A stretch of 50,594 bases of DNA from Deltaproteobacteria bacterium (GTDB lineage: Bacteria; Desulfobacterota; Syntrophia; Syntrophales; UBA2192), in assembly GCA_012728915.1 (NCBI GenBank), contig JAAYEC010000047.1, forward strand, positions 1-50,594, given 5' to 3'. The position numbers were made by a program, and so were the translations under genes. Each line of letters starts with the position of its first letter. Within the stretch, counting starts at the first letter, position 1. Below, piece by piece: positions 20,726-28,934 of this stretch. Under the pieces are notes generated by a model, which worked only from the letters and a program-made list of their open reading frames with translations, was not told the DNA's origin and did no database searches.

Positions 20726-20732
20726 ATAACAA

Positions 20733-20913
20733 CAGGCTAAAGGCTAAGGGCAAAGGGCTAAGGGTAAAGAAAAATACACATGCAACAGGCTCAGGGCTAA
20801 AGGCTTAGGGCTAAGGGCAAAACAAAAACACGAACGACAGGCTAAAGGCCAAGGGCATGAATGTTTCTTTTTTACCCTTCACCTCATGCCCTTCGCCCTT
20901 AGCCTTTTGCCTG
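20733..20913. repeat. 7-mer array: three forward blocks and one inverted arm
   Basis: Block 1 (20734-20768) is AGGCTAA, AGGCTAA, GGGCAAA, GGGCTAA, GGGTAAA. Block 2 (20787-20821) is AGGCTCA, GGGCTAA, AGGCTTA, GGGCTAA, GGGCAAA. Block 3 (20839-20859) is AGGCTAA, AGGCCAA, GGGCATG. The inverted arm at 20874-20913 reverse-complements to AGGCAAA, AGGCTAA, GGGCGAA, GGGCATG, AGGTGAA, GGGT. Any of the three blocks could pair with the arm. It lies between divergent genes, 8 bases from the NYN start codon. Confidence 0.8.
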
Positions 20914-24175: not shown

Positions 24176-25480
24176 GTGCTGAGCGTGCTCTACAACCTCG
24201 CGCTGCTTGCGGGCCTCGTGCTCCTCGCGCCCTACTATGCCATCAGGATCCTCGTGACGGGAAAGTATCGCGCCAGCATCGGGCAGAAGCTGGGCAGGAT
24301 CCCCCGGGGATTGATCTCCTCCCTCGAGGGCCGCCCCCGGATCTGGGTCCACGCCGTGTCGGTGGGGGAGGTGACGGCGGCGGCGCCCATTGTTGCCGCC
24401 CTGCGGGGAAGGCTCCCCGGCGCCTGCATCTTCCTGACGACAGGAACGGAGACGGGCCAGGCCATGGCAAAGAGGCTCGTTCCCCAGGCGACGGCCTGCG
24501 CCTATTTCCCGCTCGACCTCCCCTGGGTCGTGGGGCCGGTCATTGAAAAAATCGCCCCTGACATCGTCGTCCTGACGGAAACGGAACTGTGGCCCAACTT
24601 CCTGGGGCATTGCTCGAGGCGCGCGATTCCGGTTGTCATGGTCAACGGGCGCGTCTCTCCCCGGTCCTTCAGGCGGTATTCGCGGACCTCCTTTTTCTGG
24701 AAGAAAGTTCTCGGGACGGTCCGCGAGATCGGCGTCATCTCCGGCGTGGACGCCGATCGTATCCGGGCGCTCGGGGCGGCGCCGGGAAACGTCCGTGTCA
24801 TGGGGAATGCCAAGTACGACAGCCTCGCCTCGCGGGTGAGCGGCGAGGACTGGTCCCGCAAGGCCGCCCAGCTGAAGATGACGGCGGATTCCCGCGTCCT
24901 CGTGGCGGGCAGCACGCATGAAGGGGAAGAGGCCGTCGTCCTCGACGTGTACCGCGGGCTGCTGCGGGAGTTCCCGGACCTGCGGCTCGTCCTCGTGCCC
25001 CGCCACCCCGAGCGGGGGGCGGCGGTCCGCGACCTCGCCGCGCAGAAGGGGCATGCCTGCATCCTGATGAGCGAGATCCGCGCCGGGCGGGAGCCGCAGG
25101 GCGAGCTCGTCGTCGTCGACGTGATCGGCGAGCTCTTTGCCCTCTACAGCCTCGCCACCGTGGTCTTCTGCGGGGGAAGCCTCGTGCCGAAGGGAGGCCA
25201 GAACATCCTCGAGCCGGCCGCCTGGGGGAAGGTGGTCTTCTACGGGCCTTCCATGGAGGACTTCGCCGACGAGAAGGCCCTGTTGGAAGAAGCGGGGGCC
25301 GGTATCTGCGTGAGGGACGGCAGGGAGCTTCTCGACAGGATGAGGGAAATCCTGTCGGATCCCGCCGAGCGGCAGCGCCGCGGGGCCGAGGGCCGGAAGC
25401 GGGTCCTGTCGAGCCGCGGCGCCGCCGAGCGATATGCGGAGATGGTCGTCAAGGCGTTAGGGCTAAAGGCTAAAGGCTAA
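24176..25480 (+). CDS. waaA: 3-deoxy-D-manno-octulosonic acid (Kdo) transferase
   Basis: WaaA adds Kdo to lipid IVA in lipopolysaccharide synthesis. The protein (434 residues) has an N-terminal membrane anchor (about 4-22) and a GT-B fold. WVHAVSVGEVTAA has the catalytic Glu (about 65), VVLTETELWPN and MVNGRVSPRSF follow. VLVAGSTHEGEEAVVLD and FCGGSLVPKGGQNILEPAAW form the CMP-Kdo site. The start is GTG, with no Shine-Dalgarno. The last residues (LGLKAKG and TAA) are encoded by the first three units of a 7-mer repeat, so the C terminus has been shaped by the array. Confidence 0.94.
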   Translation: MLSVLYNLALLAGLVLLAPYYAIRILVTGKYRASIGQKLGRIPRGLISSLEGRPRIWVHAVSVGEVTAAAPIVAALRGRLPGACIFLTTGTETGQAMAKRLVPQATACAYFPLDLPWVVGPVIEKIAPDIVVLTETELWPNFLGHCSRRAIPVVMVNGRVSPRSFRRYSRTSFFWKKVLGTVREIGVISGVDADRIRALGAAPGNVRVMGNAKYDSLASRVSGEDWSRKAAQLKMTADSRVLVAGSTHEGEEAVVLDVYRGLLREFPDLRLVLVPRHPERGAAVRDLAAQKGHACILMSEIRAGREPQGELVVVDVIGELFALYSLATVVFCGGSLVPKGGQNILEPAAWGKVVFYGPSMEDFADEKALLEEAGAGICVRDGRELLDRMREILSDPAERQRRGAEGRKRVLSSRGAAERYAEMVVKALGLKAKG

Positions 25481-25550
25481 AGGCAAGACGGGATATTGCC
25501 TGATCGTCTTTTCTTTCACCCGTCGCCCTTTGCCGTAAGCCTTTAGCCCG
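25460..25550. repeat. 7-mer array overlapping the end of waaA
   Basis: The left arm 25460-25487 is GGGCTAA, AGGCTAA, AGGCTAA, AGGCAAG. The waaA stop codon TAA is bases 25478-25480, in the third unit. The right arm 25515-25550 reverse-complements to GGGCTAA, AGGCTTA, CGGCAAA, GGGCGAC, GGGTGAA. The stem would form about where waaA translation ends. Confidence 0.8.
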
Positions 25551-25559
25551 TTTTTCTTG

Positions 25560-25588
25560 TTGACAACCCGCACCCTTTCCGATATCAA
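25560..25588 (+). promoter_or_regulatory. Promoter of the leader/oxidoreductase operon
   Basis: TTGACA (25560-25565), a 17-base spacer and TATCAA (25583-25588). It lies 31 bases before the leucine-rich leader ORF and about 230 bases before the first structural gene. Confidence 0.65.
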
Positions 25589-25618
25589 GGGTGTACTTTG
25601 TGAGGGAATGACCGGAAA

Positions 25619-25729
25619 ATGACGTCGATCGGCGCAAGAAGAGAACTGCTGAGCCTCAAGGGTCTATTGTGCCTCGCTCTGCTCCTGCTTCTGCGGACAT
25701 ACCGATCGCCCGTCGTTTTTAGAATTTAG
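25619..25729 (+). CDS. Putative leucine-rich leader peptide (attenuator ORF)
   Basis: An ATG at 25619 opens a 36-codon frame ending in TAG at 25727-25729. Eleven of the 36 residues are leucine, with the runs RELLSLKGLLCLALLLLLRT and five consecutive Leu codons of mixed type (CTG, CTC, CTG, CTT, CTG). The gene lies between a good promoter and an intrinsic terminator, 90 bases before the first structural gene. This is the layout of leader peptides such as LeuL. GAGGG at 25602-25606 is a distant Shine-Dalgarno. A four-codon ORF (ATG 25608) ends overlapping the leader ATG. Expression is unproven; alternatively it is a fortuitous hydrophobic frame. Confidence 0.5.
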   Translation: MTSIGARRELLSLKGLLCLALLLLLRTYRSPVVFRI

Positions 25730-25750
25730 GGAATCGAAGACGGAATTCTA

Positions 25751-25787
25751 AAGGCCATGGGCAGAAAGCTCATGGCCTTTTTCATTT
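25751..25787 (+). terminator. Intrinsic terminator/attenuator before the oxidoreductase genes
   Basis: AAGGCCATG (25751-25759) pairs with CATGGCCTT (25771-25779). Three more pairs (one G-U) inside give a 12-bp stem with a 5-base loop, followed by TTTTTCATTT. A competing stem joins 25718-25726 (end of the leader ORF) with 25744-25752. A third joins the Leu codons at 25687-25694 with 25761-25769, one A bulged. The structural genes start at 25817. Confidence 0.75.
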
Positions 25788-25816
25788 CCCGGCAGCGCAA
25801 GGAGCGGACGGACAAC

Positions 25817-26386
25817 ATGAAAGAGATCATCTGGTTCGGTCGGGGAGGCCAGGGCGCCGTTGTTGCCGCGCAGATCCTGGCGGAGTCTGCATACCTGGAA
25901 GGCTTCAGGGGCGTCACGTCGGCGCCGACCTTCGGCCCCGAGCGCCGCGGCGCGCCGGTGACGGCCTCGACGCGGATCTCGGAGGAGCCCATCCGGATGT
26001 TCTCCCAGGTGGAGATGGCCGACATCGCCGTCGTGCTGGACGAAACGCTGCTCGGCGTCGTCGACGTCAAGGGACGGATCCGGAAGGGCGGGACGGTGAT
26101 CGTCAACACCTGCGCAAAACCGGAGAGCCTGGGGTTTGCGGCCGATGTCGACGTGGCCGCCGTCGATGCCACGGGGATCGCCCTGAAGCTTCGCCTCATG
26201 AAAGAGGGGGCCCCGGTGATCAACACGCCGATGCTGGGCGCCTTCGCGAAGGCCACGGGGATCGTCTCCCTGGGCAATGTCGAAAAGGCCCTCCGCAGCA
26301 AGCTCTCCGCGGCCGTGGCCTCGCAGAACTTCGAGACGGTGAGAGCGGCCTACGAGGGAACAACGCTCAGCAAGGTAAAAGGCTGA
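25817..26386 (+). CDS. 2-oxoacid:ferredoxin oxidoreductase, gamma subunit
   Basis: The 189-residue product is the gamma (PorC/VorC/KorC-type) subunit. It begins KEIIWFGRGGQGAVVAAQIL and contains TSAPTFGPERRGAPVTASTR, both family signatures. Gamma contributes to the CoA-binding region of the four-subunit enzyme, which decarboxylates 2-oxoacids to acyl-CoA and reduces ferredoxin. The chosen start at 25817 has AAGGAG at 25799-25804. The frame is open to 25757, but that part lies in the terminator. The last codons run into a 7-mer repeat that supplies the TGA stop. Confidence 0.92.
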   Translation: MKEIIWFGRGGQGAVVAAQILAESAYLEGFRGVTSAPTFGPERRGAPVTASTRISEEPIRMFSQVEMADIAVVLDETLLGVVDVKGRIRKGGTVIVNTCAKPESLGFAADVDVAAVDATGIALKLRLMKEGAPVINTPMLGAFAKATGIVSLGNVEKALRSKLSAAVASQNFETVRAAYEGTTLSKVKG

Positions 26387-26529: not shown

Positions 26530-26823
26530 ATGAAAAAGAAAGACGAAAACATATCCGCCATGTGCAGGCCCACCGTCGGCGAGGCCGGCAGGACCGGCGA
26601 CTGGCGCGACCTGCGGCCCGTCATCGACCACAGCAAGTGCACGCCCTTCGTCAAGAAGAAGGCGGCCTGCTACCTGTGCTGGCTCTACTGCCCCGAGGCG
26701 GTGGTCAAGGCGGGGATCCCCGTCGAGATCGATCTCGAGTACTGCAAGGGCTGCGGGATCTGCGCCGAGGAGTGCCCGTCGAGGGCCATCAGCATGGTGA
26801 GGGAGGACCAGTGCAATGACTGA
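26530..26823 (+). CDS. 2-oxoacid:ferredoxin oxidoreductase, delta (2[4Fe-4S]) subunit
   Basis: This 97-residue ferredoxin-like subunit relays electrons from the thiamine pyrophosphate site to external ferredoxin. The second cluster motif is canonical: CKGCGICAEECP (Cys72, 75, 78, 82). The first is unusual: Cys37, then nine residues, then CYLCWLYCP (Cys47, 50, 54), instead of two residues between the first pair. It overlaps the alpha gene by 8 bases and is preceded by the 7-mer array. Confidence 0.92.
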   Translation: MKKKDENISAMCRPTVGEAGRTGDWRDLRPVIDHSKCTPFVKKKAACYLCWLYCPEAVVKAGIPVEIDLEYCKGCGICAEECPSRAISMVREDQCND

Positions 26824-28024
26824 CGCGCGCATCATCACCGGAAACCAGGCGGCGGCCGTGGCGGCCAGGCTCTGCGACGTCCAGGTCATTGCCGCCTACC
26901 CGATCACCCCCCAGTCGCAGCTTGCCGAGATCCTGTCCCAGTTCGTGGAAAGCGGCCAGCTGCGGGCCGAATACGTCCGGGTGGAGGGCGAGCACTCGGC
27001 CATGACGGTCTGCATCGGGGCCTCCACCGTGGGGGCCCGGGTCTTCACGGCCACGAGCGCCAACGGCCTTTTGTACATGCACGAGCAGCTGCACTGGGCC
27101 GCCGGGTCGAGGCTGCCCATCGTCATGTGCTGCGTCAACCGCGGCGTGGGCGCCCCCTGGTCCATCTTCAACGACCAGCAGGACTCGCTCGCCCAGCGCG
27201 ACACGGGCTGGATCCAGATCTACTGCCGCGACAACCAGGAGATCCTCGACACGGTCATCCAGGCCTACCGGATCGCCGAAACGGTCTACGCCCCCGTCAT
27301 GGTCTGCTACGACGGCTTCGTGCTCTCCCACACGATGATGCCCGTCGTCAGCCCGGCCCCGGCGGCCGTCCGGAAGTTTCTGCCGCCCTACAGGCCCCAT
27401 ACCATCCTCGACGCCGCAAACCCGCTGACCCTCAACTCGGTGCTGCTGCCCAACCGGCGGCCCGACGCCGAGGGGACCCTCTGCGACGGCTACATGGAGA
27501 TGCGCTGGAAGCTGCAGAACGCCCTCGACCGGGCCCCGGAGGTTATCCGCGAGGTCAACCGGAGTTTCGCGGAGGCCTTCGGGCGCGACCACGGCGGGAT
27601 GCTCTGGACGCACCGGACGGAGGACGCCGAGGTGATCCTCTCGGGCATGGGCTCGCTTGCCGCCGAAGCCACGGTGGCCGCCGATGCCCTGCGCGAGGAG
27701 GGGATCCGGGCCGGCGTCGTGGGGATCCGCGTCTACCGCCCCTTCCCGGCAAAGGAGGCCGTCGAGGCCTTCCGGGGCGCGAAGGCCATCGTCCTCTTCG
27801 AGAAGAGCATCAGTTACGGCTACGAGGGGGGGCTGTGCTCGGACCTCAAGGCCGCCTTCTACGGCAGCGGGATCCTGGCGCCCATCCACGACCACGTGGC
27901 GGGCCTCGGGGGCCGCGACGTGAAGGCGAGGGAGCTGGTCGAGGCCGTCAAGTCGTCCCTGGCCCGGATCCAGGCGGGCGAGCGGGATCTGAAAACCACC
28001 TGGCTGAACTGCGCCACGGAGTAG
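26816..28024 (+). CDS. 2-oxoacid:ferredoxin oxidoreductase, alpha subunit
   Basis: The product has 402 residues and is the pyrimidine-domain (domain I/II) subunit. It shows IAAYPITPQSQLAEILSQFV, VRVEGEHSAMTVCIGASTVG, FTATSANGLLYMHEQLHWAA and VNRGVGAPWSIFNDQQD, all typical of the PorA/VorA family. The subunit order gamma-delta-alpha-beta is that of four-subunit pyruvate or 2-ketoisovalerate enzymes. Substrate (pyruvate or branched-chain) cannot be read from sequence. The leucine-rich leader upstream hints at branched-chain 2-oxoacids. Four bases separate it from beta. Confidence 0.93.
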   Translation: MTDARIITGNQAAAVAARLCDVQVIAAYPITPQSQLAEILSQFVESGQLRAEYVRVEGEHSAMTVCIGASTVGARVFTATSANGLLYMHEQLHWAAGSRLPIVMCCVNRGVGAPWSIFNDQQDSLAQRDTGWIQIYCRDNQEILDTVIQAYRIAETVYAPVMVCYDGFVLSHTMMPVVSPAPAAVRKFLPPYRPHTILDAANPLTLNSVLLPNRRPDAEGTLCDGYMEMRWKLQNALDRAPEVIREVNRSFAEAFGRDHGGMLWTHRTEDAEVILSGMGSLAAEATVAADALREEGIRAGVVGIRVYRPFPAKEAVEAFRGAKAIVLFEKSISYGYEGGLCSDLKAAFYGSGILAPIHDHVAGLGGRDVKARELVEAVKSSLARIQAGERDLKTTWLNCATE

Positions 28025-28028
28025 AGCC

Positions 28029-28934
28029 ATGCCGCACAATCTCTTCAAGATCCACGAGAAGGAATACGTCCTGCCCGGCACGAGGGCCTGCCAGGGCTGC
28101 GGGCTCTCCATCGCCTACCGGTTCGCCCTGAAGGCTCTCCGGGAGGACACGATCGTGACCTTCCCCGCTTGCTGCCTGTGCGTCCTTCACGGCCTGTACC
28201 CGCTCACGCCGGTCCTCGTCCCCAGCGTGAATTCCACCTTCGCTGCCACGGCCGCCTCGGCCTCGGGCATCGCGGCGGGGCTTGCCGCCCTGAACCGGAC
28301 GGAGACGACCGTCGTGGCCTTCGCCGGCGACGGCGGCACCTTCGACATGGGCATCCAGGCCCTCTCGGGCGCCGCCGAGCGGGGGACGGACTTCATCTAC
28401 GTTGCCTACGACAACGAGGGCTACATGAACACGGGGACGCAGCGATCGAGCGCGACCCCCATGGGGGCCCTCACGACGACCACCCCCGTGCTCACGAAGC
28501 AGCAGCACAAGAAGGACTTCCTCAAGATCATGGAGGCCCACCAGATCCCCTACGTCGCGACGACGACGCCGGCCTACCCCATCGACCTCTACGACAAGTT
28601 CGTCCGGGCCAAGCGCATCAAGGGGACGCGGTTCATCCACATCCACACGCCCTGCCCCCCCGGGTGGCAGTACCCCACGAAGGACACGATCCGGATCGGC
28701 CGGCTCGCCGTGGACACGGGCCTGTGCGTGCTCTTCGAGGTGGAGAACGGAAAGTTCCGCTTCACCGGCCGCAGCCGCACGCTCGCCGAGAAGGGCAACA
28801 AGCTCCCCGTGGTGCACTACGTCGAGAAGCAGGGTCGCTTCAAGAAGATGAGCATCGAGCAGCTCAACCAGCTCCAGGCCTGGGTGGACGACCGCTGGGA
28901 GGAGTACAGGAGGAGGGCGGCGGAATCGAAATGA
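28029..28934 (+). CDS. 2-oxoacid:ferredoxin oxidoreductase, beta (TPP-binding) subunit
   Basis: The product has 301 residues and carries the thiamine pyrophosphate site: GDGGTFDMGIQALSGAAERG with the GDG...N motif continuing through YVAYDNEGYMNTGTQRS. The N-terminal ACQGCGLSIAYRFALKAL with CxxC and a later CC pair match the Cys ligands of the cluster carried by beta. Together with gamma, delta and alpha it completes the enzyme, which releases CO2 and makes acyl-CoA with two reduced ferredoxins. Confidence 0.94.
   Translation: MPHNLFKIHEKEYVLPGTRACQGCGLSIAYRFALKALREDTIVTFPACCLCVLHGLYPLTPVLVPSVNSTFAATAASASGIAAGLAALNRTETTVVAFAGDGGTFDMGIQALSGAAERGTDFIYVAYDNEGYMNTGTQRSSATPMGALTTTTPVLTKQQHKKDFLKIMEAHQIPYVATTTPAYPIDLYDKFVRAKRIKGTRFIHIHTPCPPGWQYPTKDTIRIGRLAVDTGLCVLFEVENGKFRFTGRSRTLAEKGNKLPVVHYVEKQGRFKKMSIEQLNQLQAWVDDRWEEYRRRAAESK

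Follow-up and report, generated by a model that had tools for sequence, protein, structure and literature searches.

A leader at positions 25616-25782 of the window (the whole 50,594-nucleotide stretch of Deltaproteobacteria bacterium DNA that was analysed) in all likelihood governs, by ribosome-mediated transcription attenuation in response to charged leucyl-tRNA, a gamma-delta-alpha-beta operon for a 2-oxoacid:ferredoxin oxidoreductase. An earlier note had read the region as a Leu-codon attenuator of such an enzyme, and this is now strongly supported: a comparison of 69 homologous leaders establishes the leader ORF with its conserved Leu codons, in frame in all 69, a covarying antiterminator, the terminator, and the sharing of the leader with leuA (2-isopropylmalate synthase).

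The leader and its operon

The window corresponds to contig C41 of genome G000 (2.79 Mb, 100% complete). The features identified are listed in Table 1. The leader ORF begins with ATG and encodes the peptide MTSIGARRELLSLKGLLCLALLLLLRTYRSPVVFRI. It is the ORF of the earlier note, with the same 36 codons and 11 Leu, five of them together; the terminator with its U run ahead of the gamma gene is likewise present, and the gamma gene starts at 25817, as given in that note.

Table 1. Features of the leader and the downstream operon (positions are those of the window).
Feature	Positions	Strand	Evidence
Plausible sigma-70 promoter: TTGACA (25560-25565), 17 nt, TATCAA (25583-25588)	25560..25588	+	Sequence reading
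Region 1 (protector), AAAAUGACGUCGAUCGG, contains the leader start codon	25616..25632	+	Whole-leader folds; start-region:region-2 duplex z
Leader peptide ORF, 36 codons, 11 Leu	25619..25729	+	In-frame conservation in 69 leaders
Control codons, five consecutive Leu (CTG CTC CTG CTT CTG)	25679..25693	+	Conserved Leu positions
Region 2, GCCCGUCGUUUUUAGAAUU, antiterminator 5' arm, overlapping the end of the leader ORF	25708..25726	+	Folds, covariation, three-frame reading
Region 3, AAUUCUAAAGGCCAUGGGC, antiterminator 3' arm and terminator 5' arm	25744..25762	+	Folds, pairing, covariation
Intrinsic terminator (region 3:4), U run 25778-25782	25750..25782	+	Scan, folds, 98% pairing
2-oxoacid:ferredoxin oxidoreductase gamma subunit	25817..26386	+	TIGR02175 181 bits (cut-off 81), PF01558
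Delta subunit (ferredoxin-like)	26530..26823	+	TIGR02179 88 bits (cut-off 60)
Alpha subunit	26816..28024	+	PF01855, PF17147; NF040682 427 bits, below cut-off 550
Beta subunit (thiamine diphosphate binding)	28029..28934	+	PF02775; NF008818 372 bits, below cut-off 405

The terminator of the window has 13 pairs (7 of them G-C) and a loop of 5, followed by the T run. A terminator scan of the region found one example where 1.0 is expected by chance. The scan is therefore insufficient by itself, and it is conservation in the 69 leaders, where 98% of cells are paired, that sets the terminator apart from chance.

The promoter proposed in the earlier note stands in part. Both motifs are present, with a perfect -35 and a -10 agreeing at 4/6 positions, and TTGACA also occurs 5' of several relatives' leaders (for example, L010, L012 and L016). 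We grade the pair as no more than a plausible leader promoter because a strict sigma-70 scan of the window did not report it. Just upstream, an intergenic repeat (AGGCTAAAGGCTAAAGGC...GCCTTTAGCC) is found at 25455-25556 and again at 20728-20773 of the same contig with 85% identity. The copy at 25455-25556 is probably either a small repeat or the terminator belonging to the kdtA-like gene upstream.

Judged by its domains, the operon encodes a four-subunit 2-oxoacid:ferredoxin oxidoreductase. It has the same gamma, delta, alpha and beta subunits as other enzymes of the POR/VOR type, and differs from them by the leucine attenuator. Most of the named relatives of its alpha subunit come from Syntrophales metagenome-assembled genomes (MAGs), and the motif NRGVGAPW(S/T)IFND is nearly invariant in the clade to which the enzyme belongs. 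The gene neighbourhood was uninformative: across the loci the operon usually consists of the four subunits alone, and in some an SDR gene follows them.

Distribution of the leader

A DNA search of 149 relatives with the window leader gave matches in 99, most of them in the terminator. At the loci inspected the leader stands directly before either the gamma gene of the oxidoreductase operon or, in many relatives, leuA. The alignment used throughout comprises 69 leaders from fetched loci (43 before the oxidoreductase operon and 26 before leuA) and was made by sequence, not fitted to structure. A covariance model built from these 69 over the full length of the leader matches the window with E = 5e-34 and finds a match at E <= 0.01 in 146 of the 149 relatives. 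All strong matches with a readable downstream gene lie before the oxidoreductase operon or leuA, and a few others sit at contig ends. One genome (G003), in which the search found no alpha gene, nevertheless has two oxidoreductase-type leader copies, both at contig ends (G003:C79:4545-4708 and G003:C48:5781-5944).

When the search was extended to the class, only genomes of this order (Syntrophales) were returned. No recognisable leader was seen at some orthologues (for example, L123, L137 and L139) or at the 55-58% identical orthologues outside the clade. One family of the order (f14) has a group of oxidoreductases with 54% identity (L176, L177, L185). At the two of these loci inspected (L176 and L185) there is no Leu leader upstream of the gamma gene; the genomes concerned do carry the leuA leader.

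Conservation of the Leu codons and of the RNA

A short Leu ORF in homologous operons had been named in the earlier note as a point to check, together with alternative stems and covariation. The leaders present in related operons carry it: the segment of the Leu run, about 10 codons long, has 5.5 Leu codons when read in frame and 0.56 when read out of frame. Over the 69 leaders Leu occupies five of the positions with 84-100% conservation, each written with four to six synonymous codons, and the Leu codons and the terminator are kept together. Of the outcomes that the earlier note named as refuting, those open to this comparison did not occur. The segment that follows the run, GCCCGTCGTTTTTAGGA, behaves differently. 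It is read in three frames (in 36, 23 and 10 leaders) and is therefore conserved as RNA. It is nearly complementary to the terminator 5' arm, UCCUAAAGGCCAUGGGC.

The alternative stem is a 16-bp antiterminator helix between regions 2 and 3. In the 69 leaders 90.6% of its cells are paired, with 31 double-change cells. Its covariation score of 0.195 exceeds that of slid controls (at most 0.072) and was reached by 0/500 shuffles, a count that is not a probability since the rows of the alignment are related. The genus of the window has UUUAGAAUU:AAUUCUAAA in this helix where others have UUUAGGA:UCCUAAA. An initial model of the antiterminator, based on a CCCAU.GCC block, was replaced by the GCCCGU.GUUUUUAGGA helix, which gives a better fit and was picked from the fold of the window, not from the covariation count.

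Folding of the window leader gave a different structure for each position of the ribosome. With the 3' part of the ORF free, as a stalled ribosome would leave it, the antiterminator forms (-23.2 to -25.6 kcal/mol while arm 4 is still lacking). A ribosome placed at the stop codon leaves only the terminator (-26.5 kcal/mol). Without a ribosome the start region takes region 2, region 1 pairing with 25702-25720, and the terminator forms (-73.5 kcal/mol). The z-score of the duplex between the start region and region 2 is -2.6 in the window, with means of -1.5 for the oxidoreductase (POR) leaders and -1.2 for the leuA leaders; the pairing thus beats shuffles on average, with scatter, among related rows not all of which show it. 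Some POR leaders seem by eye to have a further local hairpin downstream of the Leu codons, but this was rejected as weakly supported (mean z -0.7). In the window folds the terminator, once complete, outweighs the antiterminator in stability, so that the switch must act kinetically, as in known attenuators.

Logic of control

The proposed mechanism is as follows. When charged Leu-tRNA is scarce, the ribosome would stall within the Leu run, leaving region 2 free to pair with region 3; the terminator would not form and the operon would be transcribed. When it is ample, the ribosome would reach the stop codon at 25727 and cover region 2, regions 3 and 4 would pair, and transcription would end. If the leader is not translated, its start region would hold region 2 and the terminator would again form. 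In every row of the alignment the first base of the leader stop codon falls within columns 138-152, which is the 3' end of region 2, and by this reading of the alignment its position lets a finishing ribosome mask that region. From this and the conserved 2:3 pairing we infer stalling, read-through and the ordinary, canonical direction of control, with the operon on when there is little Leu-tRNA.

The earlier note had speculated that the logic might be reversed, through pairing of the Leu codons at 25687-25694 with the top of the terminator. Such a reverse attenuator would turn the operon on with ample leucine and would suit an enzyme that degrades the keto acid of leucine. Enzymes of this class do work in both directions, and the window allows a pairing, with one bulge, between eight bases of the Leu run and the terminator top. 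Across the 69 leaders, however, this pairing is no longer than in shuffles (mean longest helix 5.33 bp compared with 5.35 bp), while it is the 2:3 pairing, giving the ordinary logic, that is conserved. Homologous leaders also precede leuA, a gene of synthesis, and we consider the degradative reading very improbable. It is harder still to credit that the hairpin acts only as an intrinsic terminator and that the Leu-rich ORF arose by chance or encodes a small membrane peptide, even though chance alone would yield one such terminator in the region and short Leu-rich peptides can form membrane helices. Region 2 is conserved as RNA and pairs with covariation, the leader directly precedes both the operon and leuA, and genes that match other control codons have a similar scaffold before them (see below).

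Substrate and direction of the enzyme

Assignment of a substrate by family models failed. PorA gives the higher score for the alpha subunit and a VOR-type model the higher score for the beta subunit, but none of the scores reaches the relevant cut-off. Since pyruvate-type and 2-ketoisovalerate-type models match the subunits to a similar degree, short of the equivalog cut-offs, pyruvate and branched-chain enzymes are not told apart and we assign no substrate by sequence. A branched-chain enzyme, as suggested earlier, is possible and fits the control shared with leuA.

A profile search of the 100% complete genome G000 found no leuA (TIGR00973); its nearest leuA relative is a citramalate synthase (719 bits, cut-off 450), and it has ilvD. 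Among genomes at least 90% complete, an orthologue of the oxidoreductase is present in 18 of 23 without leuA and in 38 of 83 with it (Fisher p = 0.009, kinship ignored). Many genomes have both, and three (G031, G092 and the 100% complete G068) have neither. With reduced ferredoxin, enzymes of this class are able to carboxylate acyl-CoAs, and some anaerobes are known to convert isovalerate to leucine by carboxylation. A synthetic direction is suggested by the ordinary logic and by the leader held in common with leuA. We therefore slightly favour, as the most likely role of the enzyme, leucine synthesis in which isovaleryl-CoA would be reductively carboxylated to 2-oxoisocaproate.

An unlikely, but by no means negligible, alternative is that the attenuator is real and the enzyme an ordinary pyruvate synthase, leucine serving as a signal of amino acid sufficiency for the supply of pyruvate. 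PorA is indeed the best-scoring alpha model. Moreover, 21 genomes of the order were searched without finding a single-chain pyruvate:ferredoxin oxidoreductase, so that some multi-subunit enzyme must do this job. G000, however, has a second multi-subunit enzyme, on contig C49, which scores higher with PorA (478 bits compared with 427) and has a different active-site motif. Relatives such as G041 do without the window enzyme, the nearest they have being a distant one (best alpha match at E about 1e-84), and for pyruvate a signal consisting of Leu codons alone would be strange.

Leaders with other control codons

About a dozen relatives from several families of the order have leaders with three or four consecutive Trp codons before IorA genes of one class. 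IorA is the alpha subunit of indolepyruvate:ferredoxin oxidoreductase, a family of known substrate class. These WWW or WWWW leaders (for example, MNRTLNLWWWRSSHKGSGVRV) are found at L178, L180, L256, L257, L284, L285, L288, L290-L293, L296 and L298, and several are followed by a terminator of the GGCCATGG type. This suggests, from the leader sequences, that one IorA class is under Trp attenuation. Other IorA copies, including that of G000 itself (L282), have no Trp-run leader. Because their codons match the known substrate class, the Trp-run leaders support a synthetic role for the Leu-attenuated enzyme.

A Tyr-rich leader with a terminator was also seen before a beta-eliminating lyase of the tryptophanase/tyrosine phenol-lyase family at L068, L077 and L182 (G025:C3; the L182 peptide is MVNYPYNLFMDYTGGNSNTYYFYYYYYGGMRLCAFSR). 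This lyase possibly works towards tyrosine synthesis.

A search of the whole phylum gave related scaffolds, which share the GCCC-rich region 2 and a region 3/terminator of the AAGGCCATGGGC type and differ in control codons and targets. Those in other classes (L235, L236, L239 and L243-L250) have Leu codons before leuA, Phe, Tyr or Trp codons before DAHP synthase and its relative ADH synthase, Lys codons before dapA, and Ile codons. As they are read from single, unaligned loci, we regard them as leads.

Relation to known systems and significance

Rfam, searched at the gathering score with the window and 11 related loci, gave no match to any family, including the enterobacterial leu leader and the T-boxes; a relaxed E-value gave weak sub-threshold matches only. 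In E. coli, leuL is a Leu leader-peptide attenuator. The ilvD gene of Staphylococcus aureus has a Leu-rich attenuator peptide (PMC5794164). The Syntrophales leader has in common with these two systems an ORF with a Leu run, alternative antiterminator and terminator, and, as proposed here, expression when leucine is scarce. It differs from them in sequence and in its target, a 2-oxoacid:ferredoxin oxidoreductase instead of the ilv/leu enzymes. In Actinobacteria, candidate attenuators have been described before leuS and a LEU element before leuA, the latter a candidate pseudoknot whose mode of regulation was given as unknown (PMC1262725). The actinobacterial leaders, too, carry Leu codons in an ORF ahead of leucine genes; unlike the LEU element, the Syntrophales leader has a full terminator and antiterminator. 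In the open literature, outside which most subscription papers lie, we found no description of this leader, of leucine attenuation in Syntrophales or of an oxidoreductase under such control.

The leader lies outside Rfam and turned up in nearly every Syntrophales genome searched. The direction in which a 2-oxoacid:ferredoxin oxidoreductase works is rarely evident from sequence, and an attenuator that reads the product gives a hint: this operon is apparently off with ample leucine, as a synthesis gene would be. A broader proposal, which we hold to be evenly balanced, is that Syntrophales without leuA make leucine from isovaleryl-CoA through the Leu-attenuated oxidoreductase, that relatives make tryptophan through a Trp-attenuated indolepyruvate:ferredoxin oxidoreductase, and that cognate attenuators mark the oxidoreductases working in the synthetic direction. 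If this is true, a CO2-fixing step would fill the missing leucine route of syntrophs that lack leuA, and leader codons would offer a general way of sorting 2-oxoacid:ferredoxin oxidoreductases.
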